In this document: positions 6,324-31,828 of the stretch, piece after piece | How the letters are laid out: every line of letters begins with the position of its first letter | Numbering within the stretch: the stretch's first letter is position 1 | Assembly (NCBI GenBank): GCA_947179485.1 | Contig: OX359246.1 | Location: 57,391,632-57,455,631, forward strand | Length of the DNA: 64,000 bases | Origin: Allacma fusca | Lineage: Eukaryota; Arthropoda; Collembola; Symphypleona; Sminthuridae | Direction of reading: 5' to 3' | Notes under the pieces: generated by a model | Told to the model about the DNA's origin: nothing | The model's input: the letters and a program-made list of their open reading frames with translations, nothing else | The model's database searches: none | Position numbers and translations under genes: made by a program

Positions 6324-7180
6324 CAGAGCTTCTGTTGGGGACAAAATTCTTGTCCCGTCCCCGTCCCGTCCCGTCCCGATATTTTTTCAAAACCTTTGTC
6401 CCCAGTCCCGTCCCGACAATCGGGACACGGTGACAAAAACCATGTCCCCGTCCCGTCCCCAAAAAATTATAAAAACGTTGTCCCCGGTCCCGTCCCGAAA
6501 GTCAGGACATGGGGACAAAAATCTTGTCCCCGTCCCGTCCCCAAATTTTTAAAAAACGTTGTCCCCAGTCCCGTCCCCAAAATTTAAAAAAATATTGTAC
6601 CCGGTCCCGAAAATCGTGGCATGTTAACAAAATTTCTGTGCCGTCCCGATAATTAGTGAAAACAGTTGTCGACATTCTCATACCGAAAATCGGAACATGA
6701 GGAAAATTTCGTACAAAATATATTTGTACCAAAAACATACAAAACACATTTATAGAATCGTGGCTCCAAGATTCTTCCTTAACTTTTTGAGCAACAAGCC
6801 TCATTTTCTACAACCTAAAATCGAATGTCTTACATTCGGTGAAATAGTGTTCACAGAATAGTTTACTCATGAGCATTAAAGCTGAAACGTTATCCTTGTT
6901 CTGCTATGCTTGCTCGTCCCGTCCCGTTATACACACAACCAAAAAGCATGTCCCGTCCCGAATATAATGGGGACAATTGTTTTTGTCCCCGTCCCGTCCC
7001 GAATATAGTGGGGACAATTTGTTTTGTCCCCGTCCCGTCCCTGATATAATGGGGACATTTTTTTTTGTCCCCGTCCCGTCCCGAATACGACATGGGGACA
7101 ATTATTTTGTCCCCGGGGACGCCCCGTCCCGGTCCGTCCAGTGTCCCGACGTCCCGTCCCCGTCCCCGGCAGAAGCTCTG
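6324..7180. mobile_element. hAT-like non-autonomous element, GTCCC-iterated
   Basis: The 857-bp element has termini CAGAGCTTCTG (left) and CAGAAGCTCTG (right), a perfect 11-bp inverted repeat followed by a second GGGGAC match. Flanks are perfect 8-bp target duplications, GTTACAAG at 6316-6323 and 7181-7188. Two GC-rich blocks (6340-6605 and 6910-7165) consist of GTCCCCGTCCCGTCCC-type iterations. The middle (about 6670-6805) is unrelated unique sequence with a second copy near 53812-53960. Gly/Arg/Asp-rich open frames across the blocks are translation of repeats. Confidence 0.9.
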
Positions 7181-7987: not shown

Positions 7988-9242
7988 ATGCGGAGTGCTG
8001 CGCTAGGGAAAGTTTGTTTAGCCAGTTCCTGTGTAATATTGCTAGTTCTTGCTGGTACTGCAGAGATTGCCGACATCACCGCTCCTACTAGTACAGATAA
8101 AGTAAATGGGGACATTTTTAAAGGAAACGTGTCAGAGAATAAGTATCTGACCGAGAGATATTTCGCGAAAGTATTTACATACCTCAGAAACTCACCAGCC
8201 TTCAAAAATGCCACGAAACAAGTAAGCAACAAGGAATTTAAGGGAAAATATCCTTAAGAAATAAACGATACGACTATGCGTTTTTTTTCTTCTGCAGGAC
8301 ATAATAGATCTAGTGACGGAGTTGGAATCATGGGAACCACCAGAGCGTCTGATTCAAAATTTACCCTATTATTTAGCAGGCTACGACTTGGACGATCGAC
8401 CTGGTAACTAATTTTTACACTTGAAAATTTGAATGAGTAATTTCGTATATCAGAGTTTGAATCGGAAATAGTGATACTTACTTACTGTGTATGGTTAGTT
8501 TGGGTAGCAGAAGTTGGGAAGTACGATCTTCGGGCAGAAGTGGAGCTAGGGGAAGAAAATATCCAAGCCTGCCTCAAATATTTATTCTTAGCAGTGCATC
8601 GGATCGTCAAAAGTATCTATGACCGAGACACGCCCGAACGAGAAATCCGAAACGCGGTCTTCATTATCGACCTTGAGGGCTTTGATCTTCTCCAATTTAG
8701 CCACACCAAAAGTACGAATCATTTCAATCCGCAATAGTAAAATCTATTTCTGGGAATCCAATTTCATCATGGTATAATTTCATAGATAAAAATATAATTA
8801 ATAATCGGTGATTTTTATTAAAAGCCATCTCCTTATGCCTTCGTCTTACAAGAGACTACAAGGAAGTTACGCAAGAGTTTATGGGTAATTGCGTCTTCGT
8901 CAATGGTAATTTTGTCAAGCTATTTATACTTATATATGAATATGTATTTATATATTTATGCATATATTATATTTATATTTAAATATGAGTTGACGCATTG
9001 GTCATTGTATCATAACACGTTTTACAATGAATTTTTTTCTCATTTGCACAGTGAATCACATCGGGGAGCTGGCAGCAGCTCTCTTTCGTCCAATATTGGG
9101 GAGTCTAATGGAGAGGATGCAGCTTTTTGGAACAAATAAAGCTAAATGGATCCCACATTTACGCCGAATGCTCCCTGAGAATGTCATACCAGCATGGTAC
9201 GGAGGCAGTAAAGATTTCAAGCCCATTCAAATATATGGATGA
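7988..9242 (+). CDS. Secreted CRAL-TRIO (SEC14-like) protein 1
   Basis: Exons 7988-8221, 8298-8403, 8499-8711, 8825-8905 and 9052-9242; phases 0,1,1,1; 274 aa. Residues 1 to about 27 form a signal peptide (hydrophobic run CVILLVLAGTAE). A short helical segment (YLTERYFAKVFTYLRNSP) follows, then LPYYLAGYDLDDRP and the lipid-binding fold beginning VWVAEVGKYDLR. Exon 3 carries IIDLEGFD, the usual V-x-D-x-x-G-F strand; exon 4 carries RDYKEV; exon 5 carries LFRPILG, GTNKAKW, AWYGG and a C-terminal IQIYG. This matches the SEC14-like end (RPxLG, YGTNK, PxxYGG). The family binds and moves lipids or small hydrophobic molecules. The ligand is unknown, and secretion is predicted from the signal peptide. 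First of five tandem paralogues. Confidence 0.85.
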
Positions 9243-10746
9243 AGATTGAAATGAAATTAATAATTATGAACGTGCCAGTAATTATTACCATCCACATTTG
9301 TAATTTGTAGCTTAACGCTGGTGCATATGTATGCATGTAAGTTCGTCCTCGGAATACGGAAACCATGTAATATAGTAAATGCAATTATTTCATATATCAC
9401 ACAAATAGAGCGTTTCTTATAATTATTGCATTTAATGCACACATTGACTGAACAGGCAAAATTAACTGCAAAAAATTAATTTAGAGGCTGATGAGTGTCA
9501 GGAAAAAATGGATTGAATGAATAATGAACTGAAACAAAAGTTTAATTTTTTGTTGAAAATATCACTTATGACAGTCCCATGTGAGAAAGCTCAGAAATTT
9601 CCAGATGGAGCCACAGACACCAATCCCCTCTCCTAATTCGGAATGAAATTGGAATAATTTAAACACAAATTTCATATTTACGAACTTAAATAGAAGAGAG
9701 TAGGCCCTGCGACGGAACTTCTCATTAAATGCCTGGCATGTAACACCAGTGCAAGAATTTTTTAGCTAGCTTGTTTCTCAATTATTGTATTTCTAACACT
9801 TTTAATAATAACTTGCGCTTTTCCCAGTCATTCCCACACTGAGTATCCAATTTATTGGAATAAAAACTTCAAATGATATTCATTAACGATAATCATCCTC
9901 GCATGATCAACGTGATTCTAAGACAGTTAATTACTGGAATTTTTTACGTAGGACGGAGACACTTGCGTGGGAATTTGCATACTTGGGTTCAGAATCAGAA
10001 ATTCCTATTTCAATAACAGTCTCTAAATATCCTACTCATTTTAGCACCCTAACTGACCCTCAGACATTCAGTTGATTTACATTTTAGTAGTTGGAGAGAG
10101 CTCACAGAACACCGATCATAGAACACGGCCTTTAGGTTCCACTGGCATTAATACAGCATCCTATAAAAACTGAATCAAACAGTACCAATGTATTACGTGT
10201 GAAAGAAATGGACCGCAGTTGCAGGTATTCTCGAATCGGAATTTGTAAATGATAAATACGTAATATTACAATCATCATTCAAAATGAGGTGCATATAGTA
10301 GCTCAATGATTTATTTTATCCTATTCCAACTGCCTTTGTGAATGTTGATGTTGACTGATAGAGATGTGTACAAGTTTAAATAAGTACAGCTATTATTCCT
10401 TTGCGTATAAACAATAAATAATTATTACTACACACAATATGAGGATATGAAATGACTCCTACAGAGCATTTGTTGTCCTGTGACAATCTGTAATATAAAA
10501 AATACTCTACACAAAATGTTCGTTCAAATGTAGACAGTATAACGTATAACCTTCGAGCATATGTTATTTACAATTTATTTGTACATGCATACGTATAAAT
10601 GGTATATATGTATGTATCTGTAATATTATTACAGAAGGAACAAATTCCAATGAGAAAAAAAATTCTCGCCTATCAGTTTGTCTGGATTCATCATCTTTAT
10701 AATAAATTCAAGGAATTTTAATAATTCTAACGAATAATCTGTAACC
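9243..10746. other. Intergenic with a decayed duplicate block
   Basis: No gene recognised. The stretch about 9820-10100 resembles 17280-17560, the upstream region of CRAL-TRIO gene 2; shared landmarks are ATTCATTA followed by AATCATCCTCGC. It may be a duplicated 5' flank from an earlier round of cluster duplication. Confidence 0.4.
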
Positions 10747-11469
10747 ATGAATATAAAAGCACTTGTTCTTTTATTTCTTGCAACGGGTAATTTAGTTTTC
10801 TAAACTTGCTTTAATATTTTTTCATTTAATATTATGGCTTATAATATTATTGTTGTTAAGTTTAATTTTATCCATCTCCCAGTTAAAAATAATTGTTTAA
10901 AAATAATACCCGGAACATTTTTTTTCGTAGAAGCGGCAGTCCGAAAACCTTTAATTTCCTCAAAAGAAGAAGCAGAGTACATTGCCTTAGATACCACCAG
11001 GTCTCTACTCCCTGACCCTATCCTAGTTCAAAAAATAGAGAAAGATGTTGCACTTATTCGTAAACAGTTCCCAGAAGTTGCTAACACCGTCTACCAGGGG
11101 AGGAAGTACACAGGGAAGCTTAAAATAAGTGAATTCTCTAAAGATGTAGAGGACAAAATTAACAGAAGCAAATTTGGTCCAATCGTGAGCGGCAAGGACG
11201 GAGTGATTCAATTCAAGGAGCACTTCAACCCAGATGTTCTTTCCAGAGAAATTAAAAAGCTAACCGGCGTCTCTGCGGATCCTATTTGGATCAGACCCCC
11301 CGATTTTGGAGATATCGAGTACAACAGGGATGATTTGACTTACACCTTTAGAGAAGGCTTAGAAAATTGTAAGCCAAAATGTACAGCCAATAACTACTAC
11401 ATATACCAAATCAATAGCAATGGCCAGATTACTTTTGACGGCGAGCAAGCTACAGATATTGAATATTAA
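10747..11469 (+). CDS. Small secreted protein, function unknown
   Basis: Two exons, 10747-10786 and 10931-11469, joined phase 1 (donor ACGG/GTAATT, acceptor TTCGTAG), give 192 aa. Exon 1 alone encodes a short hydrophobic leader, MNIKALVLLFLAT, typical of a signal peptide that is cut just after the junction near EAAVRKP. I prefer this start to reading exon 2 upstream through the intron. The mature part is charged, with long predicted helices (SSKEEAEYIALDTTRSLLPD onward), a proline-rich turn (DPIWIRPPDFGD) and a single CKPKC pair near the C-terminus. No domain family recognised. It lies between CRAL-TRIO gene 1 and the esterase and shares no sequence with either. Confidence 0.7.
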
Positions 11470-12184
11470 TTACTACACCTTCGAAAGTAAAAATATTTTA
11501 GTTTGTCACTATTCCAAAATACAATTGAAATAAAATGTCAAATTCATATCAAAGGCGTAACCTTCTAATAAGTCTCTCTGTAATTCTCTGAAACTTTTAA
11601 CCTTTTTTCTAACTCAGAGCTTCTATAGTCTCCTCGTTTTCTGGGTTGGACCTTTTTATTTTCCTAAATTTGATTATTTTCACAAATTTCCAAAAAAAGA
11701 TTGATTCACACCCGTTCCAAAAACAAAGCTACATCCCATGATTTCACTATTTTATTTACACACACAAGCAATGTGTGTATGAACAACATAAACTGATAAC
11801 ATTCTACGGATAACACTACACCTTTAAATTATCTATGTATTTGAGAACTTGGTTTCCATATTTTTAGTTTTTCTAAGATCTCAGCCACTGTTTTGAATTT
11901 AAAACAAATTGAACCGTACATACAAACATAAATTTTATGTAATATTATTTAAACAAAAGACAATAAATGGTACCGAAAATCTCTAATAATTGTAAATTCA
12001 ATAAATCACACAATGTAATATAACCACAGACTGAAAAAGTATAGCTGGTTGCACTATGTAAGAATATAAATTCCTGACTAAAACCCGACTAATGAAGAAT
12101 AATAATGAAACAAATCATCGGATCAATTTTAATTTAAGATAACTCTTCGGTGGAAAAGTATTTAAAATCTTCGACATAGCTTAC
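11470..12184. other. Intergenic between convergent genes
   Basis: This holds the 3' ends of the secreted-protein gene (plus) and the esterase (minus). The sequence is AT-rich with no reading frame of interest. Confidence 0.5.
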
Positions 12185-15002
<2,818 letters not shown>

Positions 15003-17707
15003 GATGTAAAATTGCAAACTAGGACTCAATCAGAGTTTAACGAATTTTGTTGGATGCAGCAGACCTTGGGTGCACTTGTTACTGTCAAAATATATTTTTA
15101 AATTTTATCTCCAGTACCAGGTAGCTGTGAGGTTCACTTCCAGCTGACTTGTCATGACAGACAATAAGAAATTTGATACATCGTAAAGTATAGTTGCAGT
15201 TGCGGCTTCGATAACATAAAACAGGAAATATGTTCTCGTGCATGGTTGTACCAGAAGTCTAGGATAAATCCCGTGTTGATGAACTTGACGTAAAGGAGCA
15301 ATAGTATTATGCAAATTGATTTTGTTAGGTTTGTAAATGCTCATGTAATATGTAGTAAGATAATTTTAGAATAAATCAGAAATTATCTGACAATTATTGA
15401 ATAAACAACGATTAAAACATGTTTTTTATCCATATTTTAAGAAATTTGAAAAATGCAAATATGATATTGCTCTCACTGTGTTAAAAAATATGGAGTCTGT
15501 ACATGAAGCAAGGTAGCCAGATATCTCTGCTTTAAGGTAGCATAAAGTTTTAAATCTAAACTTAGAATTGTGGCATTCGAGGTAAGTAGTTGAGTGGTTC
15601 ACTGGTTGATACATCGGAGTAATTTTGATTACTTTTCCTACTAAGTATTACGGAAAGTGGTTTGCATACAGTGATTGCATAATTATTACATTTATCTGTG
15701 TTTTCCGAAACTTTGAAATCCTAATTTGGGAGGCGTATCTGTAGTCAAATTCACTGATGTGTTTTTACCGAAATTTCATATTTTTTTCCGAGAAGAAATC
15801 ATCTGAGACTTTACCACCCTACGGCGGCGTGTGATTAGTTTGAAGAGCTCACTGTCAAGCAATTTAAATGAAATCATATCGTTGTTACATTTTGGCGGGA
15901 TATTCAAAAACGTGACCGTCTTGACAAATATTCCCGCAACCTGAGCGTTGGCTCTAGGGTCGAAGACAATCTTAAACTAACGAACTTAAACTTCAGATTT
16001 TGACCAAGTTTGGTCGGAATCCTAATTCCGTTGTCTTCGCTGATTCAATTATTTTTCTAGGACGATCTGCCACCCCATTCATATTTTGTCTCCTCCAGCT
16101 AGCAAACAGAGTTACCCTATGTTAGCTATATTATGCTATTATACTATGATAATCATACGAGCAGAATGTTCCCAGCTTACTGATAAATCAACATGTGAGA
16201 CTTCCCACCCCAATCAACATGATGTGCCGAGATCTAATCTCCAAGATACCATCCGAAAAACAAGTGCAAGCACATCAGGATTTTAATAGAAAAATTCACA
16301 ATATACACATACTAGACCTAAACAATCTACATAAAGATTAGAGTAGACATAACCCTAATGTGAATACATGGAGATCCAATTGCTTGAGATTAGCCTCAAC
16401 ATTATGTCACTACAGGAGATAACTCTTGAAAGTATAATAAAATTTCCATGAATGAAAACACATAGATACATATATTTGACTTGCGTGAAAAAATGTACAT
16501 TTCAGACTTAATTTTTGTGAACTTTCAGTAGCAACTGACAACTGCCTAAAATTATCAAATAACATCTATAAGCTCCGAATGAGCTGAGTAGTAGTGAAAG
16601 TTAAAGTATATATGTATGCTTCACTAATAAATGAATATTTATTAACCTGGGTCTTTGTGTTTTCCTTAAACATATAATAATAATGCTTGCCTAATGCTTC
16701 CCAAAACATATCCTTTCAACATCACCATGAGATAGAGTAATTCGTAGCATAATAATTGTCATTGAGATTAAATTCCCGCCTCTATATTATTCTGAACCAA
16801 AATTGAATTAAAATGTAAAATTCTTGACAACTAATCCAATGATGAGGGAATTTTTCTCATACATAAAATATACCACATTGCAACGAGAACAAGTAATAAT
16901 TTTTCATGGAAACATATGCAGCTGCTTGCTACTCTGTTTATTACGTATATACATTGTGCGGATGCAAAATAAACTGGGAAAAACGCACATGCCGGCGAGT
17001 GTCCAGAAAAAATTACATACTTCAGAAATTGTAAGTACCCAAGATATTTTTTGATTCACTGAAAACATGGCTCATTACGGCCGTCCCAATTTCTAAAATT
17101 CTGAGAATAGTGCAAACACGAATTCCATCAATTAAAAAATTTTACACCTGGTTAAATAAGTTTTTCTTGCTACTCATTAACTGACTGGAATTTAAAACTG
17201 CTATTTTTTACTATGTAACTTGTTATAAGCTGTAACATAATTATTGGATTTCAGATACTTGATTGTTTAGGCTACTTGAATTTTTTCACTCATTTCCACG
17301 CTGAATATTCGAATGAAACTGTGGAGTAGAAACTTAAAGGGTATTCATTATCCACAATCATCCTCGCGTGTTCAACGTATCTCTTGCACCCAATTATAAT
17401 TTTTTATATACAGAAATATCTCTTGGGAAATTACGTTCCGAAGCTCCTGTTTCTATAAATGTCTCTACAATTCATAAACTCTTTTGAGGCTCTCTGTCGT
17501 TAGTATTTTACCCATTCATTATACAATTCAATACTTGATACCCCTTAATGTTTCAGACTTCAGGCCCAGTAACCCCAGATATTTCAGGTGCGAGTCCTTC
17601 GATCCTAGTATAGTCAGCAGTGTTCTTGACAAAGCCCATTTCTTTCCGATTTTAACAATATAATTATAATTACGTATATACATAATTAGATATTCCTGAA
17701 TTTCGAA
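15003..17707. other. Intergenic, 2.7 kb
   Basis: The left part is the presumed esterase promoter, the right part the upstream region of CRAL-TRIO gene 2. The block 17280-17560 resembles 9820-10100. No other coding or RNA feature could be supported. Confidence 0.45.
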
Positions 17708-19559
17708 ATGCGAGCAAATTCACTCCATTTCCTGATTTTTATCGCTTCTGCCGTTTTGTCTTCAGCGGAAGAATTGCCAGATGTTACTGTCACAACTGAA
17801 GTAACCCCAAAGGAGCAGGAGGAAGAAGCATCTTCAAATGATTATCTGTCAGAGAAGTACTTCCAAAAAATTTACAAATACATTCGAAACTCAGCAGAAT
17901 TCCAAAGTCTTACAAAACAAGTGAGGCTCATAAATTAATTTTTTGCTGTATGGAACTATTAATTATTGCACACGACATATGCTAACAAAATTTGTTTATT
18001 GTATAATTTATAATGCTGTCAACTCCAAAGGAGCTATTCCAACTACTAAATGAGCTGGAGACGTGGGAAGTGCCGGAGCACTTTTCCAAGAACTTCCCCT
18101 ATTATTTAGCTGGCCACGACTCTGCAAGTCGACCAGGTACAGTTCTTTAAAATTTTAATGCTACTCAATGCGAAATGTGCGCAAAAATAATTACTGGAAT
18201 TCCCCCTGAATATTTTTGCTTTAATAGAGAAAATGTGCTTATAAAGGGATCCCTCGTAGTGTTGACCACACTATACATACATAGTGGGTATCATCTGCAA
18301 AAGAAAATTTTATTATACTTTTATTCGCAGTTTGGGTCGCAGAAGTAGGCAAGTACAATATCCGAGCTGAGGTGGAACGTGGTCCAAGGAATATTGAAAT
18401 AGGCATGAAGTACATTTTCCTTACGGTTCATAGATTCATTAAGAGTTTGTACGACCAGGACACGCCAGACAGAGAAATTCGACATGCGGTCTTCATTGTG
18501 GACTTTGATGGGTTTGATTTGCAGCAGTACGGCCATCCTGAAAGTATTTTACCTATAATTTTGAGAAATAAATAGATATATAAATATTTGCTACATGATC
18601 CCATTCGGTTATAAAAATCTAAACTTGTTTTGTTTTAAATATTTTAGCTCTCGCACAGCTGCTGCGTGTTTTCAGAGAGTACAAGGAAGTCATTGATGAG
18701 CTCGTAGAAAAAAGTATTTTCATAAATGGTAAGCAATCCTTGAAGCCAGAGATGTTCAAATGATTTTCCCTTCCTTCAATCCTTTGAATGCAAAAAAATA
18801 TATTCATTTCCTTCCTTCAGACCTCTTCAGATTGAAGGCTTGGAAACAAAATTCCTTCCTTCACCCTTCCTTCGAAGTTGTTTATTGAGATCCTTCCTTA
18901 AGCCTTCAGTAATATTCTTCCCTCACCAAATTCCGTCTTCCGCAATACTTTATTTTCATATATGAGACAACAAAGTCAAGAAACGAAAACGCCAGAAACC
19001 GTCTTTCCATCGTATTATATGTACCCTGGTACGTTACATGTGAATGAAAGCGCGTATTGACAGCGTTAGAGTTAGTTGTCATGAAAGGTACATTCGGCGC
19101 GCGAAGGGTGATTGGGAAGCACCCTTCCGGCAACTTCAATTTTTTCATTAATGCGCTGAAGCCTTACTTGTTCCTTCGTAATTTTTTTCACCCTTCGTTC
19201 CCTTCCCTTCATTTCTTTCGAAAGAAGTGCATCCTTCCCTGAAGGAAGGCTTCTTTGAAGGGTACCCGTCGACGGGTGAACATCTCTGCCTTGAACTCAT
19301 TCTTTTTTGTTTTTCAGGTTATTGTTTGGTTTTATTTAATTTAAACATTATAATCCTGTGTACCACAGTGAGTCCAATGGCTCGTGCAGGAGTAGATATG
19401 TTCCGACCAATCCTTGGACGAATAATGGAGCGTGTTGAGCTTTATGGTCCTAGTAAGGACAAGTGGGTAGAACGGATTAAAGAAGTCCTCCCTATAGAAG
19501 CCATACCCCCGTGGTACGGAGGAAACAAATACTTCAGACCTCTCCAAATCTATGGCTAA
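17708..19559 (+). CDS. Secreted CRAL-TRIO (SEC14-like) protein 2
   Basis: Exons 17708-17920, 18031-18136, 18331-18543, 18648-18728 and 19369-19559; 267 aa. Signal peptide MRANSLHFLIFIASAVLSSA, then an acidic linker and YLSEKYFQKIYKYIRNSAEF. Exon 2 ends FPYYLAGHDSASRP; exon 3 begins VWVAEVGKYNIRAEVE and holds VFIVDFDGFD; exon 5 holds MFRPILG, YGPSKDKW, PWYGG and IYG. The last four exons match the paralogues base for base in length. Intron 4 (640 bp) is enlarged by the hAT-like element at 18747-19288; the splice sites around it are intact. Its spacer sits about 2.7 kb past the esterase 5' end. Confidence 0.85.
18747..19288. mobile_element. hAT-like element in intron 4 of CRAL-TRIO gene 2
   Basis: The 542-bp element has perfect 12-bp inverted ends (CAGAGATGTTCA and TGAACATCTCTG). 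Flanks are CCTTGAAGC on the left and CCTTGAAC on the right, an 8-bp duplication with one indel. The interior is rich in CCTTCCTTC iterations on both halves. It adds length to the intron without touching splice sites. Confidence 0.82.
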
Positions 19560-20063
19560 AATAATTGATTATCTATTAATAATTATGCCGGAATGTTATT
19601 TTATCTTCCATTAAAATTCTTCAGTGTTGTACTCTTTAGTTAATTTAAAATATCTACAATCAATAAAACTTACAAATTAAAATCAAAATTTGATTCGGAG
19701 TTACCACGACGGTTCTTGGTGTATCTACTTGGTACTTTGGGATTTTGCACATTTGTACAAGTCATATAGTAAAATAAGGGGATAGAATAATTAAACGTAA
19801 AATAAAATTTCCTTTGATCATTCTAACCTGCGGGACCTGTAGCTATGAAATGTGCAACCTACAGACTTACAAATAAATGTAAATTAGGGTCGGGATTAGT
19901 TGCATGATGGCGAAAGCGAAACCGTATATTCGCAATTCTCCAGAGTATAAATATTATTCCGTGCATGTAAATTTTCAAAACTTGATTTATTTTGTATCCA
20001 TGAAGTGACACTACCAAAATATTCACACCTTACTGAAGAACATTTAATATGTTAATTCCCTCA
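19560..20063. other. Intergenic
   Basis: 3' flank of CRAL-TRIO gene 2. No gene seen. Confidence 0.4.
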
Positions 20064-20440
20064 GATGATGAACAAATTTAGTGCTGGATAAATTAGAGAA
20101 ATGGGAAGGACCAGATCGACTAAAAAAGAACTGTCACTATTATTTTGCTGGAATAGACCCAGTAAAAGCCCTTCCAATTTTAAACAGAGCTCTGTTTCAT
20201 TAAAGTTATTCAAGAGGAGTTCTACGCACATATGGGAATCTCATTGTTATTAATTTAGGGAATAACCACAAGAAAAAAATAAATTGTAAATAAAAAAAGA
20301 AATCTCCTGGGAATCTCACCCTGGTTATGAGCTTGTCAAGATTAATGGGACAAATAAAGCCACGTGGATACTACAGATCCGAACATACTTCCCTGCTAAC
20401 CTTATTCTATGAGGAAGGAAAAATTTTAAAACTGCCCTTA
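20064..20440 (+). pseudogene. Decayed CRAL-TRIO fragment A
   Basis: Two separate remnants in the order expected for this gene family. At about 20070-20165 the sequence reads LVLDKLEKWEGPDRLKK then YYFAGIDP, the exon-2 block of the paralogues. At about 20325-20440 it reads NGTNKATWILQIRTYFPANL, the exon-5 block, interrupted by a stop where the WYGG segment should follow. Exons 1, 3 and 4 were not found, so this is a partly deleted gene copy. Confidence 0.75.
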
Positions 20441-21377
20441 TTTGTCTTATGAGTAGCTAAAAGTATTATGGAAAATAGCAAATAAAAGAATATCCCATGT
20501 GTTTAAACTCTACCAACATTTTTTGATAGGAGGGTGTTCAAATATCTGGGTTCCTAATGAGAAAACATCATTAGAGCGGGCTATCTAAAAGCAATAGCAC
20601 ATACTGTAGGCTGAATCATGCACATACTTATATGTGTTATTCCAGTTTTGCCTGCTCATTATTACCATGTACAACGTCATGGGAAAAAAATTCGTCCACT
20701 GCAAAAACAATTCTAGGGTTTATAATTGGTTCAACATTCTACATTTCACCTGAAATAGTGTAAAAAATCTGGTTTTAAGAGCGTAGATAGGAAATAGGAA
20801 ATCACTCTTCCTTAAGAATGGTATTTCCCCACTTGTCAGACAAAATCAGCAGAACTAATCCTGAGTCACTCACTAACAATCAAAAAAGTTTAAATGCATG
20901 AGTCACAAAAAGACTCAACACTTAATTAAATAATTCTGTAAATGATTTTGAAACACATTACAGCAAGCATATTAATAATACGGGAAGTCTGTAAGTTTGA
21001 CTCTAAATCTTTGCGTTTGAGATTTTATCGTGTGAACATAATTATTTCAAGGAGTAATGAAAATAGCGTGCAATGAAGCCATTCCCTCTCCACACTTCAC
21101 CATTAATCCTCCATAATATTTCCTCATTTATGTATACAATAATTAAATTTGAATTTAGCCACTGGAATTTTCCTGCCCCAATCTAGTTTGTATCCGGAAA
21201 AGGTGTTGGTGTGAATGAGCAGGATTGCGTAATCAGTGTTTTTCTTAAAACACAATACTCCAAGTTCAATTCCCGGTTTGTGTTTCTACGCAGGCGGAAT
21301 TAAGTCAATGCATTTTTCCCAAGTGACGCCTCAGCAAACGATTGTCTTGGTAAAAATTATTATTACTCTTCATCAGC
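20441..21377. other. Intergenic
   Basis: No gene or repeat recognised; presumed upstream region of CRAL-TRIO gene 3. Confidence 0.4.
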
Positions 21378-22580
21378 ATGCCCAGATATCATCTCTTAAC
21401 GATTTTGCTCGTCAACTTTCTTTCGCTGTTCTTCCCTTTACTATATTTTACGAATGGGCAAGAAATAATGGAAATAATTCCAGTGACTGAAGTACATTTC
21501 CAGGAAAGTCAAGCCAGTAATCATAATATTACGGAAAAATTATTTAAAAAACTCGGAACTTACGTTCGAAATTCCCCGGGTTTCCAGAAATATTCAGCTC
21601 AAGTAAGTTTGTGAGAATTTAAATATACAGGAACAAATGTTCTCTTTGATTACACAGTAAATGCCATACGTACCACATGAAGCTACTTTTACGTTATCGG
21701 AATTTAAAATAAGGGGAATTATTTGTGTTTTTAGGAACTCCGGAACTTAACAATTGAATTAGAATCTTGGGAGGAGCCAGAGGAGTTAACAAAAAAATTC
21801 CCATATTATTTTGCAGGGTACGATTCTAACGACTGGCCTGGTAAGACATTTTTTGAATCGGTATTAAATTTTATATTTCCTTTATAACTATCTGATTAAC
21901 CATCAACACCTTTCCTTGCACAGTGTGGATTGCTGAAGTCGGGAAATTTAATATCCGGCGCGCAGTGGAGCTGGGCAATGAGGAACTCTTAGTCAAATAC
22001 ACATTTAAAGCAATATACAGAATTATTAAAACCATACATGACAAAGATAGCCCAGAGGAGGAAATCCGATTTGGAGCTTTCATCCTTGACTATGATGGTT
22101 TTGATTGGTACCAAATAAATCATGCGGAAAGTAAGATAATTCTCAAACCTTCCATAAAATATATTTATTCTTAAATTATTTTTTAAATATGACTTGACTT
22201 GTTCGCGTTTAAGCTGTAAACTTCATGCTCCGAGTGCTACGAGACTACAAGGAAGTCATTGAGGAATTTTTGGGCTATTGTATGCTAATAAATGGTAATT
22301 TTATTTGATTGTTTTGAAAACTCAACTCTAAAATCATTTAGGAATAATTAACGCTGTTTTAAAACGTTTTTTTCCTATTTTGTAACCAGTCAGCCATCCA
22401 GCCCAAGTACTGATTAATTTAGTCCGCCCTATACTGGGTCGAATGTTAGAGCGCGTTGACGTCTTCGGGACAAACAAAGTCAAGTGGATCCCAGCATTGA
22501 GGAGAAAGTTCCCTGAGAACATCCTTCCACGTTGGTATGGAGGAAACCTGACGTTTAAGCCGATACAAGTTCACGGTTAA
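21378..22580 (+). CDS. Secreted CRAL-TRIO (SEC14-like) protein 3
   Basis: Exons 21378-21602, 21735-21840, 21924-22130, 22214-22294 and 22390-22580; 269 aa. The N-terminus is a long hydrophobic leader (LLTILLVNFLSLFFPLLYF). Then ITEKLFKKLGTYVRNSPGFQ, FPYYFAGYDSNDWP, and exon 3 beginning VWIAEVGKFNIRRAVELG. Exon 3 is two codons shorter than in the paralogues (NEELLVKY in place of a longer EEN...KY), leaving the frame intact. FILDYDGFD, RDYKEVIEEFLGY, LVRPILG, FGTNKVKW, RWYGG and a terminal IQVHG complete the family pattern. No defect seen. Confidence 0.85.
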
Positions 22581-23355
22581 ATAATAATTATTTCAGTTCC
22601 TCAAGAATGCTGGATCCGTTCATTTCTGCTATATTAAATCCAGTGCCAGAAAGTATTTATTTGTATATAAGTACAATGGATGAGTCAATTGCACGAAAAG
22701 GATAAATATTAAGGATCTACTTTTTTCATGAAGTAAAGCTCATTTTATTGTTATTACTCTTGAAATTACCAATTTATCTCACTATCAAAACAAATACTGT
22801 TTTTTAGTGTAATGAATTTGAACTTGATTTTTAATTTCCTCAGGACCATCCTTTTCACTATTTTTGTCAAAAATGTTAGAGCGTTTAACTAAAATGTAAA
22901 ATATCCATATAATGATGTTTACAAGGTTATATGCTCTTTTGAATTGTGCTGTGAAACATTGTGCTACATGAAAAAAATACTTGTTTTTGCGTTTTCAAAG
23001 AATTCCCATGCATCCTTTACGAGTTAAGTTTTCTGAAAGCATTTATAGATTTTAATCAACAAGTAAACTCAGGAATATTTCTGGAGCTTTGTGAGATTTT
23101 TTTATCATGGATGTTCTGGTATAATGTATACTCATCACAAATGTACATACATATGTTATTATATGCTACCCTTATGCAGCGATCATTCTGGAATATATTA
23201 TATCCAGATGATATAATCATAAATATCCCAGATTGTGAGTAAATAAATTTAGATCAGTTATAATTTCTAACTTGACGCAATGGAAAATATTTGGTAATAA
23301 TTGACTTCCTGCCAGGGTGATGTATAATTTTGAAAAACTAATTCGTACAATTGAT
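22581..23355. other. Intergenic
   Basis: No gene recognised. The last ~110 bases (about 23245-23355) resemble intron 2 of CRAL-TRIO gene 5 and belong to the duplicated fragment that follows. Confidence 0.45.
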
Positions 23356-23487
23356 TACAGTTTGGATGTCTAAAATGGGTAAATTTTGCGTTCGTCGAGA
23401 AGTGGAATTGGGGGAAGAGAACCTCAAAATATTGCATAAGTACGCCTTCCACGCCGTTTACAGAATCATTACGACTATTGCCGTCCA
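23356..23487 (+). pseudogene. CRAL-TRIO fragment B (truncated exon 3)
   Basis: After an intact acceptor (GATTACAG) the sequence reads VWMSKMGKFCVRREVELGEE and continues through KYAFHAVYRIITTI, then similarity stops abruptly. It is closest to exon 3 of CRAL-TRIO gene 5, and the preceding intron also matches that gene (CTTGACTTCCTGCCAGGGT in gene 5, nearly the same here). It is therefore a genomic partial duplicate, not a retrocopy. No other exons are present nearby. Confidence 0.8.
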
Positions 23488-23965
23488 TTTATTCAGAGAT
23501 ACTCGATTCTAAATTTTTTCATTAAGCTGTGGAGTATGGTGTAATTTACTCTCATACTTTACATGGATTTCTCATTTCGTATGTGATATTATGAGTACAT
23601 ACGTAATAATATTCACACGGAGTGTAATTATTAATAACTATAATTTAGTCTGAACATAGTAGTACAGGACGTGCAATATAGCATACAATAAGAAACTTAT
23701 CTCGCATTTCATGTGAATATACATATGACTCAACCAGGAAGTAGGTACGCATTATTGGAAGTTTACTTGAAAACTTGGAATTTTCCGCCGTGTTAAATTG
23801 GAACCAGATGTTTACCTTCAAAGGGTTGTTGTTCCGCGGCATTTCCTCTGCACAAATATATGGAGGGCTAAATATCTATCCTGGCTAAGCATTCAGCGAG
23901 TACTGTGGTCTTTAAAACATTGGAAGTGCCAAATCTTTTACTGATTTCGGAACTCTTTCACAAAG

Positions 23966-25407
23966 ATGGAACTCCAAAATTTTCCTCTCAAGTTTTCTAT
24001 ATTTCTGCAAATAATTTTACGCTGTAACTTTATAGGAGCAATTCCGGTTGAAGATACAACCACGGAAATATCCAAAACACATTCACAAGACAATCAACCG
24101 GATAGAAACAGAGAAATCAATGATGAGCTATTTCATAAAGCCCGCTCTTATATTTTATATTCGCCAGGTTTCAGGAATTATTCTGCTCAAGTAAGTTCCT
24201 GAAATCATATTTTGAAGAATTTTAAATATTTTAAATTCAAAATGTTTTTCTGTTACAAATTGTTGCACTCTTACAAAAGCTTCATGTTGACATTGGCTGT
24301 GCAACCTAATTTTGATTTGGTACTTTTAGGACTTCCGAGATTTCTTGAACGATCTAGAAATGTGGGAGGAGCCAAACAATCTGAAAAAGGGCTTTCCATA
24401 TTATTTCTCTGGGCACGATCTCGAGGACAGGCCTGGTGAGTTCCGTCATACTGCGCAAACTCTTTCATTAATTTTGTCGGGTAGAAATTTCAGTGTGGCA
24501 TAGTTTTGAAGTGATTTAGCCAAACCAACATTATATTAATCCTTATTTTAGTGTGGTTGGCTGAGATCGGCAAATTTAAAATACGTCAAGAAGTAGAGAA
24601 GGGTCCAAAAAACGTGGAAATCATCCTCAAATATACATTTAAAGCCATATTGCGAATCATTAAGACTATTCAGGAAAAGGATACACTGGAAAAAGAAGTT
24701 CGACATGGGTCATTTCTCTTGGATTTTAATGGCTACGATATGTATCAGATTGCTCACATGGATAGTAAGGACACTCGCTGCAAGTTTTATGACAATTCAA
24801 AATGATTAGAATTGATTGTTAATTACAGTAATTCATATAGAATTAAAATATGGAAATTTCTCCTCACAGCTCTGGCTTTCATGCTTCAAGTGGTGAGGGA
24901 CTATAAAGAAGTCATTGACGAATTCATGGGTTATTGTATAATTGTAAACGGTATGCAAGTTTAATTAAAGCGTCCTGTATGGGCATTCTACAGATACTAC
25001 AATTCTCCGTATAATGTAGACATTTGAAGATTAACATGTACACAAACCAAATTCATTATGAAAATGCAGTTTTTCTCTCTTTAAGCAGATTTTAAATTAA
25101 AGCAGTATGCTTTTTCAGTTTGTATGGATTTACATGTGTACATATGTAATTATTTTTGGTTTCGTTTGTATCATTAAACAACCTACTAACTTTAGACGTG
25201 TTTTCAATTTCTGTAGTGAATCCGCTCGCTCAACAATTGCTTAACCTGATGCGTCCAATGCTGGGTCGAGTATTCGAGCGGATTGAAACCTATGGTATGA
25301 ACAAGGCCAAATGGCTTCCTATCGTTCGGAGACAATTCCCGGATTATCTCATTCCCAGCTGGTATGGAGGAAGCCCGACCTTCAAACCTATTCAAACATA
25401 CGGCTAA
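23966..25407 (+). CDS. Secreted CRAL-TRIO (SEC14-like) protein 4
   Basis: Exons 23966-24190, 24330-24435, 24552-24764, 24870-24950 and 25217-25407; 271 aa. A signal peptide (MELQNFPLKFSIFLQIILRC...IGA) is followed by a polar linker and ELFHKARSYILYSPGFRNYSAQ. The core reads FPYYFSGHDLEDRP, VWLAEIGKFKIRQEVE, FLLDFNGYD (Tyr in place of the usual Phe), RDYKEVIDEFMGY, LMRPMLG, YGMNKAKW (Met where the paralogues carry Thr or Pro), SWYGG and IQTYG. All junction phases match. The first exon is the most diverged part across the cluster, as expected for a fast-evolving leader. Confidence 0.85.
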
Positions 25408-25489
25408 AGTCTCACACCCTTATTTTATATTTCACACATGCGCAATAGCTTAAATAGTAAACAAAATACTTTTTTCCGTTCTATTCTAT

Positions 25490-25975
25490 CCTCTCTTCTA
25501 AGTTGAAAGAGTGGATAGTCTCCGTCTCCGTGTCCGTGTCCGTGATGGTAAGATTCAAATATTCGCGCGCTTTTTTTATTGGCTGAGCCAACAATAACTG
25601 GCTAAATAAATTATTAAAATTATTTTTTTTAAATTAAAAAAAATATTAAAGCGTTATAATGTTGTGCACTTTTTCTTTTTTTTTTGAATGAAAAAAATAA
25701 TGTTGCTCAAATGAAAAAAGGATGTTAAAAAGTCTTAATAACTCGAAATTATTAAAAATTTAATTTAATTTTTATTTTTTATTAATTTTTTTGCGGATTA
25801 GAGATTCAAACAGCGAGCTTTTTTATTTGCTGAGCCAGCAATAGCTGACTAAATAAATAATATTATTCTAAAAAAATTAAAAGCATTATACAGTAGCAAG
25901 GGCGGCGACATTTTCACGGGCAGCCGTCCACAACCAAGACTCACTCTTTCAAATTATGAATTAGAAGAGAGAATC
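25490..25975. mobile_element. Inverted-repeat element (MITE-like)
   Basis: Left end CTCTCTTCTAAGTTGAAAGAGTG and right end CACTCTTTCAAATTATGAATTAGAAGAGAG are inverted copies, separated by AT-rich sequence with two GCTTTTTTTATT...GCTGAGCCA-type repeats. A CAGTAGCAAGG...CACGGGC segment (about 25895-25925) recurs near 54990-55025. No target duplication was identified and nothing is coded. Confidence 0.5.
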
Positions 25976-26024
25976 ATTTTAAAAAATTTAAAGCAAAATT
26001 AAATGAAAAAATTGTTTTACCGTA

Positions 26025-26155
26025 CATTAGTCTACACATTTACTAGGGCTGTGCAGCTAGCTATTGCATACAACTGTTATTTACTGTCTACCCTTTTTAC
26101 ATTTTCCTCGCAAAGCCAGCAATTTGCTGGCTGTGCAGTGCTCGTAAGTGTTCAT
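26025..26155. repeat. Dispersed repeat, copy 1 of 3
   Basis: About 130 bases from GTCTACAC to GGCTGTGCAGTGCTCG match the reverse complement of about 47090-47220, and partly match 54730-54830. Shared landmarks are CAGCTAGCTATT and CAACTGTTATTTACTG-type strings. Confidence 0.7.
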
Positions 26156-27480
26156 AAACGTACCCAGGCTAGTTCGTTTGATGGACTCTTTCAAATTAAA
26201 ATTTTGTATTTAATTTGTGAAAGATCGTATTAGACAGGACGGCCTGAACTTATTGTGAACTGCCATAGACAATTTTTCCGATTAAAATAATATTTCCCGT
26301 GAATTACATGTATTTTTATTTCTAATTTAAATGAAACAGAAGATTGCATTCCTGTACAACTGTTCCCTAATTTCTTAAAACAACAAATTTAAATACTGGG
26401 TTTTGTGCAATATTGTATTAATGGGAATTAAATTAACGATGTTGCTATTTACTATGGAAGAGATGAATGAGCAAGCTGGATTTACTAACAATGTTTAATC
26501 TTTCCCTTCATTTTCTCTGTTTTGAGGAATTACTATCCACGTACTTTTCAATCCACTACTATAATACGAAAAGTCTTGGAAATGAAACCCATTTGAAGAG
26601 TTAATACAGTAAAGAAAAATTGTTATTATTACTGTTCATTTATTAAGACAACTTGATTTAGAGTCTGAAAGTGTCTAGTTTAAAAAATAATGAGACAGAT
26701 GAAACTGAATCAGCAGAGTATGTACTTACTTGAAACGATGGGATTACGAGAATTAAATTTACACAAAAAAAGAAACATGTGGAAAAATCACACATTGTGT
26801 GAAGAAAGTATTCTGACACGAGAGCATAACTACAGCTCACTTTGAGTATGAAGCACGTTTTTAAGAAATACTTTTAGTGAACCGATATGTATAGTATGTC
26901 TGTCAATGTTTTCAATGGTTATATATATGTATACATAACTCGTTTTTAATTTTACTCCTTATAATAAAAAGAAGTCCATAGTGTCTACTCTCATTCATGT
27001 TCTTATTGTTTGGTGAGATTGAACTGTATTTCCTGCTATTCTGGAGAAATCCCCCCAAAATAAAATTTAATGGCTGGAAATTAACTTTTTTTGCCGAATG
27101 TCTTCCTTTTACAGATTCCTCCCTTCTTTATTTCATCTACATAGCGTGCATGTCAAATTTCTTTTCACCCAATACACTTGCCAGATACCCTTTTCGTTAA
27201 TAGCGTGTGAACGTGTGTCGTAATTGGGTGCTAAGTACATCCATTTTAATTTAAGCTCTTGTAACATTTCTAATAACCCGGAATACATTCCTCTGTTACA
27301 CTTGTGGAATTTCAGGATTTTTTTGGCCGGACCAAAATCAGAGTTTTAAAAGCTTACTCATCTTCCACTAAAGCTCCCAATTTAGTATCTATTCGGCATT
27401 TATCTCTCACGGGTGTTGAAAGTCAGACTTGGTTTGAGTTCATATCAAACTTTTAAATTTCGGTAGCATTGCCCATCAAA
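26156..27480. other. Intergenic
   Basis: Upstream region of CRAL-TRIO gene 5. No gene or convincing repeat seen. Confidence 0.4.
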
Positions 27481-28841
27481 ATGGTGGACGGGAATCGCAC
27501 CTGGAGATTTTTAAATTTGATACAATTATCCCTGGTTTTGTCTTGCCCTCTTGTTTGCATCACAGTTGCACAAGAAACGACGGAGGTTACAGCCCTGGAC
27601 TTCCAGGAAATTGATCTGTCCGACAATAAACTTGGCACTGACGACATCCCTGAGAGCCTTCTTGATAAAGTTTGGACATACATTCAAAATTCCCCATCAT
27701 TTAGAAATTATTCTAAACCGGTATGGGAGAATTCACAGTGGCGGTTGATTATATCACTCAATTAATTTCTGCATTAGTAAAGTTCTTGGGGAATCTTTTA
27801 GCCTTTTATGCTTGTATTTTCAGGAATTACTGAAATTCATGAAGGAACTTGACACATGGGAGGAGCCAGATCATTTGGTGAAACATTTTCCATATTACCA
27901 TGCCGGATATGATGCTGAAGATAGACCCGGTAAAGTTCTTTCCAGCTAAAGAAAAGTCCAATGAAAATGGCAGAATTTAATGTTAATATTGTAGCAATGG
28001 AAAATTTTTGGTACTTGACTTCCTGCCAGGGTAATGCATAAATTTGAATTCCTACAATTGATTACAGTCTGGATGGCGGAAATGGGCAAATTTAACGTTC
28101 GTCGAGAAGTGGAATTGGGGGAAGAGAATCTCAAAATTTTGCTCAAGTATGCCTTCAATGCCGTGTACAGGATCATTAGAACGATTCATGAGAAAGATAC
28201 ACCGAAGCAGGAAGTTCGGTATGCATCATTCCTATTCGATCTCGATGGGTTTGATTTGTACCAGTTTGGTCACGCTGCTAGTAAGTTTTTCATATATTCA
28301 TCTCGCATTCCTATCAATTTTGTTCCTATCAGGATATTAGACGTCTTGACAAATTTCCGAAGTACTGTATGCATTTGTATTTCAGCGATGATGTTCATCC
28401 TCAGAGTGTTTCGGGAATATAAGGAAGTCATCAGGGAGCTTTTGGGATATTGTATGCTTGTGAATGGTAATTTATACAAAATTAGTATTGGATCTTTTTA
28501 CTTTACAATAATTTATTACAAACATATAAAATTACAGACAAACAATTTGAAAGTCAAAACTATTTAGAACTTATAGTAGCTTGTAAAATCAGTTCAAGAA
28601 ATAAGGGTTTATAATAATTTCGATATTTTTAATAATGTACAATTTCGAAGCAAACCACTTTGCACAACTGACAATAAATCTCGTTCGCCCGATACTTGGT
28701 CCGGTTCTTGAGCGCGTTGATGTGCATGGGACGAACAAAGGAAAATGGCTTCCAATGGTGAGACGACAATTCCCGGAAGACATTATCCCACTTTGGTATG
28801 GCGGAACTCCAAAGTTTAAACCTATTCAAGTTTACGGCTGA
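27481..28841 (+). CDS. Secreted CRAL-TRIO (SEC14-like) protein 5
   Basis: Exons 27481-27720, 27824-27929, 28068-28280, 28386-28466 and 28651-28841; 276 aa. I take the ATG at 27481 (MVDGNRTWRFLN); the hydrophobic run LSLVLSCPLVCITVA is the signal peptide. The core includes LLDKVWTYIQNSPSF, FPYYHAGYDAEDRP, VWMAEMGKFNVRREVE, FLFDLDGFD, REYKEVIRELLGY, LVRPILG, HGTNKGKW, LWYGG and IQVYG. The acceptor before exon 5 (TTCGAAG) is weak but is the only one that keeps phase and matches the paralogues. It is the source of fragment B at 23356. Last gene of the array, with the receptor pseudogene converging from the right. Confidence 0.84.
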
Positions 28842-29423: not shown

Positions 29424-31828
29424 TTATGCATTTCGATTGCCAACAATTAAAGACACAGTATTGTCGATGATAATTCCCATGAATGTCAAAGTCAACGGTC
29501 TGTCCACATACCCAAGCCATCCATTCAGCGTAGTGCTGCGCTCGGGTCAAGTATTTATAAAAATCCGACCACGAACTTGACTTGACCCCGACTTCTCAAG
29601 TACGTATTTCAAGGTAACCCGAACTTGACAATTTCAGTTCAAGTAATACTTGAATGTAACAAGTTCGGGTTTTCAAGTAATTCTCAGATTACTTGACCAT
29701 GATTTTATACGCGCGTTTCGGGTCCAACGTTAACTTGACTTGACCATGACCCGAACTTGACCATGAACTTGAACTTTCAAGTACAAGAAACCTGACTTGT
29801 ACGACACCAAAATACTTAAATTTTATTGGAGAAAAATTTATATTTGTCAGGTGTGTACGTGAACATACTTCTACTTCGTTTCTAACACACTAGGTTTCAC
29901 CCAGCATAATGCGAGCAACCGCCTCTAAAAACAAAAATTGTATTTTTGACCGTTCTCATTGAATGTAGAATGTACAATGAAGATCTACTCTGGTTTCGAG
30001 TAGCCGGTGTGTCTGGTGTCTCAGTTGACATTTTCGGTAACACAGAACTCCTTTTAGGTTTTGTTGACATATTCTATTGTAAAAATGGGTGAACATTTTT
30101 AAATCAATTTCTACGGAGCCGATCCATATGAGTGTTGAGCATTCTTTTGTATTTACACACGGAACAAGTTAACTAAGGCCTCTTAAAATGATGCACTAAA
30201 ATTCCGCTTTAAGTTTTATTTAGTATAGTGAATCGTAAGTGAATTGAAAACTCCCTCAGCCATGGAGACTTGCTCAAGCATGATTACTTGAACTTGTACA
30301 CGAAAAACTCAAGTTCGTGGTCAAGTACTTCTAAATATTTACTTGAACATGACCAAGTACTTCGTTCAAGTAAAATAATTATTCTTGACCACGTACTTGA
30401 CTTGACGTAAGAAATCATGGTCAAGTCCATTAAATTCCTGAACACGACCCGAACCGTTCATAGTTTTAATTTTATTTACTTGACCACGACCCGAACGCGA
30501 ACTTGACTTGAAATAATCGTGGTCTACTTGTACTTGTGCGCAGCTCTGATTCAGCGTACGAATAGGCTGGATGCTTTTAAGACATCTTCGAAATAAAGAC
30601 TTTCCTCGAAAATACTTCCAAGAATCCAGGACTCTCAGAGACGCCTCATATTGCTGGGCCGCTGAATTCACCATGATTACATTAATGTAGCTCATGGCCA
30701 ATGTCACAAATACTGCTTTGAGAGTTAGTGCCGAAACAACCAGGTAGATATTAATTGTGGTAAAAACGACATATGCCAGGAAACAAACAAAGTACACACG
30801 ATTCCAAATACCGTTATGTTCACTTTGTAGAACCCGCAACATATCAAACTTGCTTGCAGTGTCTTCCAAATGTCTGGAAGGGTGTTCCTTCGACTCAGAT
30901 GATTTCAGCTGCCTAGAAGTAAAAAAAATATGAAAATGTTTTTGATGCTTATGTAATAATGTGTGTTAAAAAAATAAGGAGTGATTAATTGATAAATATT
31001 ATTAAGCTGGTCTTTTAAAGGGAATCCATGTACCCTAAGTGTTTGCACAGTACGTTTCCATGATATTCCATAATAAGGAAAGTCCAATGACAGACGAACG
31101 TGTGAATACAAAATACATAAAATTAAAGGATGCTCATTCCAACCCTCACTATATTTATACTTTTTCCGTTTTTGAGCATACTGGTCATATGGTATGGTTT
31201 CTCTGGCCGCATGATCATTCGAAGAGAGTACACCAGTAGATATATTGTAAAAATAATTGCTGACTTCCGCATGACACTGCTGGAATGCCTTGGATTGTTT
31301 GAACGGTTACTGCTATACTCACGAGACTTGATTTGGTTAGCTATACAGAGGTAAAATGTCTCGTTAATTGAATTTATTGTGTATGCATCAATTTATTTAT
31401 TACAGATAATCATTAGGAATTTTAAAATGTGACACTGCTAAAAAGGTAAGTAGAAACGTAAACGCACCTGTCTCTTCGACGTCTAAACTTAACAAGTGAT
31501 TCATGTAGTTTTTAGTGCCATTCCAGTCACAACTTATTCTCATATACATGTTGAGTATATTTAGTATGCCCACTGTGAAAGCCAAGAAATCCGAGGAGTC
31601 ACTTCCAGTTGACTTTCCTCTCCGAAAATAGGAAACGTGGACGAAGCGAAAGAGGAAGGTAGCTGTGTAGATTAAATACAATAATGTATTAATGATACAA
31701 TGCAGCTTCTTCCACTTGTATTGAACTAGCTCCACCCGCCGAGTTTTTGGATTCCATTGGAAAGGGAAAACTCCAAGTGTGTACCCAACTTTGAACGTTT
31801 GAAAATAAATCCAGAATTCGGGACTCAT
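29424..31828 (-). pseudogene. Gustatory-receptor-like gene, broken by a stop and a transposon
   Basis: Exon 1 is 31828-31468 (MSPEFWIYFQTFKVGYTLGVFPFQW..., two membrane segments), exon 2 is 31340-31034, exon 3 starts at 30912. Phases fit at both introns. Exon 2 carries an in-frame TAA at 31123-31125 inside a membrane helix (...VGMSIL, stop, FYVFCIHTFVCHW). Exon 3 encodes the late helices and SLFRRCLKSIQPIRTLN; the frame is then cut by a 1018-bp hAT-like element (29531-30548). Beyond it, in frame after the target duplication, come GWLGYVDRPLTLTFMGIIID and NTVSLIVG, the typical C-terminal helix, ending at 29424. Without the lesions the length would be about 380 aa, usual for 7-transmembrane chemoreceptors. 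Exon 2 is the least certain part; if misplaced, the stop could be an artefact, but the insertion stands. Confidence 0.75.
29531..30548. mobile_element. hAT-like element, CAAGTACTTGA-iterated, copy 1
   Basis: The 1018-bp element has ends TAGTGCTGCGC and GCGCAGCTCTG (inverted, differing in two outer bases), flanked by perfect 8-bp duplications ATTCAGCG (29523-29530 and 30549-30556). Both flanks of the interior are packed with ACTTGA/TCAAGT and CACGACCCGAAC-type motifs; the centre is unique. It interrupts the last exon of the receptor gene. Copy 2 is at 35086-36095. No transposase encoded. Confidence 0.92.

Follow-up and report, generated by a model that had tools for sequence, protein, structure and literature searches.

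Sec14/CRAL-TRIO proteins are best known for exchanging lipids in the cytosol, and Sec14-fold proteins hold one lipid in a gated pocket. Here, five CRAL-TRIO genes (g1 to g5) are described, which lie in a stretch of 64,000 nucleotides (nt) from the springtail Allacma fusca (contig OX359246.1, positions 57,391,632 to 57,455,631 of the forward strand), referred to below as the window. With a probability of roughly 0.75, as judged from the sequence, the products of these genes are secreted lipid carriers with a minimal CRAL-TRIO (Sec14-fold) architecture; their export is predicted.

The genome paper of the springtail Folsomia candida gives 154 Sec14-like genes, which are among the top expanded families, and it places the number in two springtails far above that of any other hexapod known at the time (PMC5490193). 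The passages on this expansion discuss it with the cytosolic yeast Sec14 as functional model, and the words "secreted" and "signal peptide" are absent from the main text of the paper (PMC5490193). Sec14-like genes of Folsomia respond to a lipophilic toxin, with two being up- and one being downregulated in the microarray data as described (PMC3325419), and SEC14 is called cytosolic in a passage on the springtail Megaphorura (PMC2726227). Outside the springtails, a CRAL-TRIO protein of the nematode Haemonchus contortus is described among the lipid-binding proteins that are abundant in the vesicle-depleted secreted fraction (PMC10785392), and SEC14-like protein 2 is named among the proteins of wasp calyx fluid (PMC10605793). 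These two precedents, as far as the passages describe them, make it harder to claim that CRAL-TRIO proteins outside cells are a new sight. Among the open-licence papers listed in a literature search, 20 of 150 in one case, none described a secreted CRAL-TRIO family of springtails or of arthropods.

The five window genes and their domain

All five genes lie on the forward strand, and each has five exons separated by GT-AG introns. Acceptors, donors and reading phases were enumerated, and for each gene the model that is consistent across all five was chosen; several exons have alternative splice choices, the chosen ones agreeing in all five genes. The genes (splice model and Pfam) and two degraded copies, which were found with a hidden Markov model (HMM) of the family, are as follows, in window positions:

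7988..9242, + strand: g1, CRAL-TRIO gene, 274 amino acids (aa); exons 7988-8221, 8298-8403, 8499-8711, 8825-8905, 9052-9242
17708..19559, + strand: g2, CRAL-TRIO gene; exons 17708-17920, 18031-18136, 18331-18543, 18648-18728, 19369-19559
21378..22580, + strand: g3, CRAL-TRIO gene; exons 21378-21602, 21735-21840, 21924-22130, 22214-22294, 22390-22580
23966..25407, + strand: g4, CRAL-TRIO gene; exons 23966-24190, 24330-24435, 24552-24764, 24870-24950, 25217-25407
27481..28841, + strand: g5, CRAL-TRIO gene; exons 27481-27720, 27824-27929, 28068-28280, 28386-28466, 28651-28841
19883..20409 (approximately), + strand: degraded extra copy with remnants of exon 2 (E-value 2.6e-6), exon 5 (9e-4) and exon 1 (0.048), family HMM in six frames
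23342..23509, + strand: orphan exon-3 fragment of a relic copy, family HMM E-value 1.2e-15

The proteins are 267-276 aa long, and g2 to g5 are 41-49% identical to g1. Exon 1, which encodes the leader, a linker and a short conserved tail, measures 234, 213, 225, 225 and 240 nt in g1 to g5, while exons 2, 4 and 5 have 106, 81 and 191 nt in every gene, just as the initial annotation had stated. Exon 3 has 213 nt in g1, g2, g4 and g5 and 207 nt in g3, and the introns between exons 1 and 2 span 76-139 nt. Five tandem genes had been announced; the five are real, but they do not stand back to back, as pieces of an esterase gene and another open reading frame (ORF) of the forward strand lie between g1 and g2, and the array also contains the two degraded copies. 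An identity of 83% to g5 over 41 aa suggests that the exon-3 fragment stems from a rather young copy.

The CRAL-TRIO assignment, for which a profile search had been proposed, is borne out by Pfam: CRAL_TRIO (PF00650) matches all five proteins at E-values up to 0.1, the best being 2.1e-15; g1, for which alone bits are given, scores 54.1 bits at a cut-off of 22.6. The match begins near a Trp-x-x-Pro-Glu stretch encoded by exon 2. None of the five proteins matches the CRAL_TRIO_N helices of Pfam at E-values up to 0.1, and the six CRAL_TRIO_N exon matches of the whole genome all lie outside the window genes. A profile of the five finds 14 distinct solved sequences at E-values of 7e-6 to 1e-3, which are named as YKL091C, Sec14 or SEC14-like 2/3 proteins.

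Residues were counted in 35 last exons and 19 copies of exon 4, five of the latter from the window. The position aligned to the lysine of SKIFILG in YKL091C is arginine or lysine in 32 of 35 family members, and the position aligned to the glutamate of PERMGK is glutamate in all five window genes; both positions are, as we assume, part of the phosphatidylinositol-binding barcode. Since the acidic position is glutamate in only 7 of the 19 members counted, phosphatidylinositol binding by the springtail family does not seem assured. A barcode is also mentioned in passages that name E204 and Y68 of Sfh5 (PMC7462610).

A genome-wide family with predicted leaders

The five-gene array makes up only a small part of a family that is spread over the genome. 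In a search of 392,743,791 bases on 91 contigs, g5 gave at least 142 matches (140 of 744 candidates scored), and the last exon of a more distant member gave at least 150 places, all of them last exons (150 of 478 candidates scored); a few of these places contain stops, and some may not represent functional genes. The loci used below for exon lengths, first exons and upstream ORFs were chosen mostly by similarity to g5.

The CRAL-TRIO genes of this genome form at least two large lineages, because in seven loci sampled from separate arrays (L028-L034, termed group B) motifs of the N-terminal helices lie on exons of their own; a motif search, not Pfam, finds them in all seven, and a leader-like ORF lies upstream in one of the seven. 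Large separate CRAL-TRIO exon arrays are seen, for example, at C8:46.1-46.8 and C1:56.8-57.0 megabases. The single-frame conventional genes L021, L022 and L023 keep the N-domain motif (judged by eye), and their start points score -3.6, -3.9 and -3.5 in the leader scoring described below; L027 (-5.0) was excluded as its ORF starts inside the domain, and L024-L026 were unscored. All ten conventional paralogues examined, that is group B and L021-L023, thus keep the N-domain motif, and nine show no leader. They share the CRAL-TRIO domain with the window family; in contrast to it, they keep the N-terminal helix motifs and mostly do without leaders, and the C-termini of group B as read differ from those of the window family, although one of the seven (L033) also ends in glycine. 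Two group B genes, L031 and L029, have putative donors of the same phase (phase 1, by eye) after a conserved proline and a conserved asparagine, and these common junctions suggest that the window-type and group B lineages inherited one ancestral exon plan.

In a tree of 42 rows, the five window genes form one clade (99/97 fork), in agreement with the local duplication assumed initially, and a 100/99 branch splits 35 window-type rows from seven conventional or group B rows under a midpoint root; the four group B rows were put together crudely from open stretches, and in several other rows part of exon 3 or 4 is missing. L035 (C8:57387600-57391000, reverse strand), a member of the secreted lineage with a leader score of 4.4, lies a few kilobases upstream of the window and is the earliest branch of the window-type lineage in this midpoint-rooted tree. 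The exon architecture, by contrast, was not born with the local array. Exon lengths were counted in 32 of 34 modelled rows elsewhere (30 distinct genes, two of them seen twice, group B excluded): the last exon has 191 nt in 26 rows, 194 nt in five and 206 nt in one, exon 4 has 81 nt in 15 of the 17 rows that score above 5 bits, and exon 2 has 106 nt in 11 of 32, the rest ranging from 82 to 115 nt. Since the 191-nt last exon and the 81-nt exon 4 recur in these relatives, the window lengths are inherited, and shared exon lengths were rejected as a mark of recent local origin, the pattern being older.

Leaders were scored with the weight matrix of von Heijne (1986), in which each of the 15 position columns adds up to 161, at a cut-off of 3.5. 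The predicted signal-peptide-like leaders of the window genes are:

7988..8053, + strand: leader of g1, 22 aa, score 5.5
17708..17767, + strand: leader of g2, 20 aa, score 6.0
21378..21458, + strand: leader of g3, 27 aa, score 7.1
23966..24040, + strand: leader of g4, 25 aa, borderline, score 2.4, under the cut-off
27481..27570, + strand: leader of g5, 30 aa, score 6.9

In relatives elsewhere, first exons were selected for a similar 3' tail and a good donor. A strong tail match was found in 11 of 34 rows (two of them group B; the 23 rows without a strong match count neither for nor against), and 10 of these 11 leaders score at least 3.5, the exception scoring 2.3. A second rule takes the best-scoring leader among the ORFs with an ATG start in the 700 nt before exon 2, and it was applied to 38 of 39 rows (one has less than 700 nt upstream), including two group B rows and one gene twice. 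The cut-off is reached by 30 of 38 rows, compared to 4 of 38 antisense, 11 of 65 shifted and 34 of 380 shuffled regions. The eight misses are the two group B rows, g4, one row with a leader further upstream, one at 2.3 and three without a leader. The same rule was passed by 16 of 20 fresh loci (antisense 1/20, shuffles 18/400), and with a shorter minimum ORF by 17 of 20 (1/20 and 25/400); these loci were hand-picked down the list of 150 places, skipping places already read, and for L045 the upstream sequence measured only 424 nt. The idea that the leaders are chance hydrophobic ORFs was rejected, as the pass rate of the controls (antisense, shifted and shuffled) is far lower, though not zero.

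The stretch behind the leader is rich in sites for N-glycosylation. Across 16 genes, the mature part of exon 1 carries 28 N-x-S/T sequons compared to 12.6 (standard deviation 3.0) after shuffling, a count that none of 5000 shuffles reached, and reversed sequons number 13; at least one sequon is present in 14 of the 16 genes. Cysteines are scarce at loci outside the window (1 in 1015 residues of exon 2, 3 in 416 of exon 4, none in 1870 of exon 5). Their scarcity was dropped as evidence for secretion, as exon 4 encodes a cysteine ahead of its end in four of the five window genes and the count had no cytosolic paralogue for comparison.

Several observations weigh against secretion. Only four of the five window genes pass the leader cut-off; the signal peptide that had been assigned to all five is thus scored for four, and g4 is borderline. 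Among 2000 shuffled N-termini, 191 score as high as g1, 14 as g2, 28 as g3, 159 as g4 and 69 as g5, with g1 and g4 being the weakest candidates. The cut-off is also exceeded by a stretch inside g3 (4.1). The first exons and cleavage sites of the window genes are computed predictions. Under the upstream rule, 6 of 36 window-type rows and 4 of 20 fresh loci have no leader, 5 to 17% of control regions pass, and some passing ORFs, for instance those of L003 row 10 and L055, may differ from the actual first exon. Exon 1 of g2 has no sequon, and the group B gene L031 has a leader-like ORF that scores 4.8. Because shuffled N-termini and the internal g3 stretch can score as high, no single leader is decisive, and the argument for secretion rests on the wider family. 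The initial proposal of secreted CRAL-TRIO carriers holds as a prediction, with leaders in four of five window genes and with leaders and sequons that recur in the sampled relatives.

Compartment, mechanism and C-termini

The simplest mechanism is that of an exported single-lipid shuttle. The leader would direct the protein into the endoplasmic reticulum (ER), where cleavage and N-glycosylation would follow; the CRAL-TRIO domain would take up one lipophilic molecule in its pocket, and the exported carrier would move the lipid between membranes or surfaces outside the cell, be it in the gut lumen, the haemolymph or at the cuticle. The switch from cytosolic to secreted may have occurred once, at the base of the window-type lineage, by replacement of the exons for the N-terminal helices with a signal-peptide exon, and in later duplications the exon pattern would have been preserved and the leader and linker would have diverged.

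A C-terminal glycine, alone or followed by a single arginine or lysine, is the shape needed for C-terminal amidation, and alpha-amidation is a secretory-pathway enzyme step that is otherwise typical of peptide hormones. The C-termini of the family were collected as 62 pattern matches, six of which were judged by eye to be chance and removed. Of the 56 kept, 48 end in glycine (39 Tyr-Gly, 6 Phe-Gly, 2 His-Gly and 1 Arg-Gly), four end in Gly-Arg or Gly-Lys, and four end otherwise, none of them KDEL-like. This near-invariant aromatic-glycine end, at times followed by one arginine or lysine (for example window positions 9189-9242, L001, L011, L013 and L038), resembles amidation acceptor ends.

The proteins could enter the secretory pathway and yet remain in the lumen of the ER or Golgi, or be anchored there by an uncleaved leader, and handle lipids inside. 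As cleavage is only predicted, the hydrophobic stretches of g1, g3 and g5 might serve as anchors; however, cleavage motifs are predicted in most leaders, and no C-terminus of the retention type was found, with 52 of 56 ending in G, GR or GK and the other four not being KDEL-like, which makes retention improbable.

Export of the proteins is also to be weighed against ordinary cytosolic Sec14-like proteins, whose apparent leaders would be artefacts of picking ORFs with an ATG and whose true first exons would have no signal peptide. The use of cytosolic yeast Sec14 as model for the Folsomia expansion (PMC5490193), the description of SEC14 as cytosolic in the Megaphorura paper (PMC2726227) and the score of only 2.4 for g4 speak in favor of this explanation. 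However, of the 11 outside leaders whose first exon was selected for its tail and donor, 10 pass, leaders are enriched over antisense and shuffled controls in two sets of loci, and sequons are enriched in the stretch behind the leader. In the window genes, the introns of 76-139 nt between exons 1 and 2 leave no room for N-domain exons. We therefore consider a cytosolic location very unlikely.

For the exported carriers, cuticular or gut lipid handling is our first guess as a role, because the Folsomia genome, in the part of the paper on expanded families, also has expanded group 2 allergens and acyltransferases (PMC5490193). Most sampled relatives in this large family also start with a leader that resembles an export signal, which suggests that in springtails a normally intracellular carrier has come to be exported on a very large scale. 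A more far-reaching proposal, which we regard as doubtful, is that the largest gene-family expansion of springtails does not consist of cytosolic Sec14 proteins and includes, as a main part, one secreted and N-glycosylated CRAL-TRIO radiation, in which a signal-peptide exon replaced the N-terminal helices and whose C-termini are substrates for alpha-amidation. The amidation part is prompted by the Gly, Gly-Arg or Gly-Lys end in 52 of the 56 sampled C-termini; the terminal glycine may also have a structural reason.

Neighbouring genes and comparison with known systems

Other features of the window are the following:

13687..15029, - strand: carboxylesterase exons between g1 and g2; PF00135 above cut-off on ORFs 14823-15026, 14047-14247 and 13687-14004
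10804-11469, + strand: 221-aa open frame, located between g1 and the esterase; no Pfam family above cut-off
31400-31825: 7tm_7 chemoreceptor ORF, sub-threshold (E-value 0.0049, 16.7 compared to 26.6 bits)
3780-4160, - strand: cytochrome b5 piece, above the Pfam cut-off
1167-1508, - strand: fatty acid desaturase piece, sub-threshold
39727-40089: chloride-channel piece
51744-52193: JmjC/zinc-finger piece

The esterase neighbour named by the initial annotation is real, with PF00135 above cut-off in three of five ORFs tested; ORF 12862-13359 reaches 16.9 bits, below the cut-off of 27, and ORF 12185-12469 has no match. The carboxylesterase gene probably runs on to about 12862. The cytochrome b5 and desaturase pieces possibly belong to one front-end desaturase gene (1167-4163, - strand). 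Short GTCCC-rich tandem arrays with periods of about 36-82 and 41 nt occupy positions 6389-7115, and the open frames on both of their strands are probably not genes. Rfam gave no match above thresholds in the window. A chemoreceptor relic had also been reported: the chemoreceptor is represented only by the sub-threshold 7tm_7 match, no test supports its status as a relic, and Pfam finds no chemoreceptor family in two more ORFs next to it.

That the proteins are odorant or pheromone carriers secreted into sensory lymph, as had been suggested at first, would fit the predicted secretion, the large family, the tandem copies with relics and the possible chemoreceptor neighbour, but it is highly improbable, as nothing links the family to sensory tissue, the 7tm_7 match stays below cut-off, and the cytochrome b5/desaturase gene and the esterase lie as near or nearer.

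If the reading as exported lipid carriers is correct, the Sec14 fold has moved outside the cell on a large scale, in a lineage with at least 150 last-exon places, and the compartment assumed for the published springtail expansion may have been the wrong one. The puzzle of the gene count would then become the question of which lipid outside the cell, be it a cuticular, dietary, toxic or signalling one, calls for this number of carriers.

With Sec14p, YKL091C/Sfh1 and SEC14L2/3, the window proteins share the CRAL_TRIO domain, about 175-180 residues of which align to 3q8g, 4uyb, 4omj and 1aua (E-values of 7e-6 to 1e-3); unlike these, they have a signal-peptide-like leader and are without the CRAL_TRIO_N helices. 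The secreted CRAL-TRIO protein of H. contortus, compared by description only, is a precedent in that it is also found outside cells; however, it belongs to another phylum, and the passage that describes it mentions no signal peptide, lost N-domain or gene family (PMC10785392). The closest parallel in family size is the Sec14-like expansion of Folsomia candida and Orchesella cincta as described in the genome paper (PMC5490193), which is likewise a very large springtail CRAL-TRIO family, with at least 150 last-exon places in Allacma; the sampled members in Allacma are mostly predicted to have leaders, whereas those of Folsomia are discussed there on the cytosolic model.

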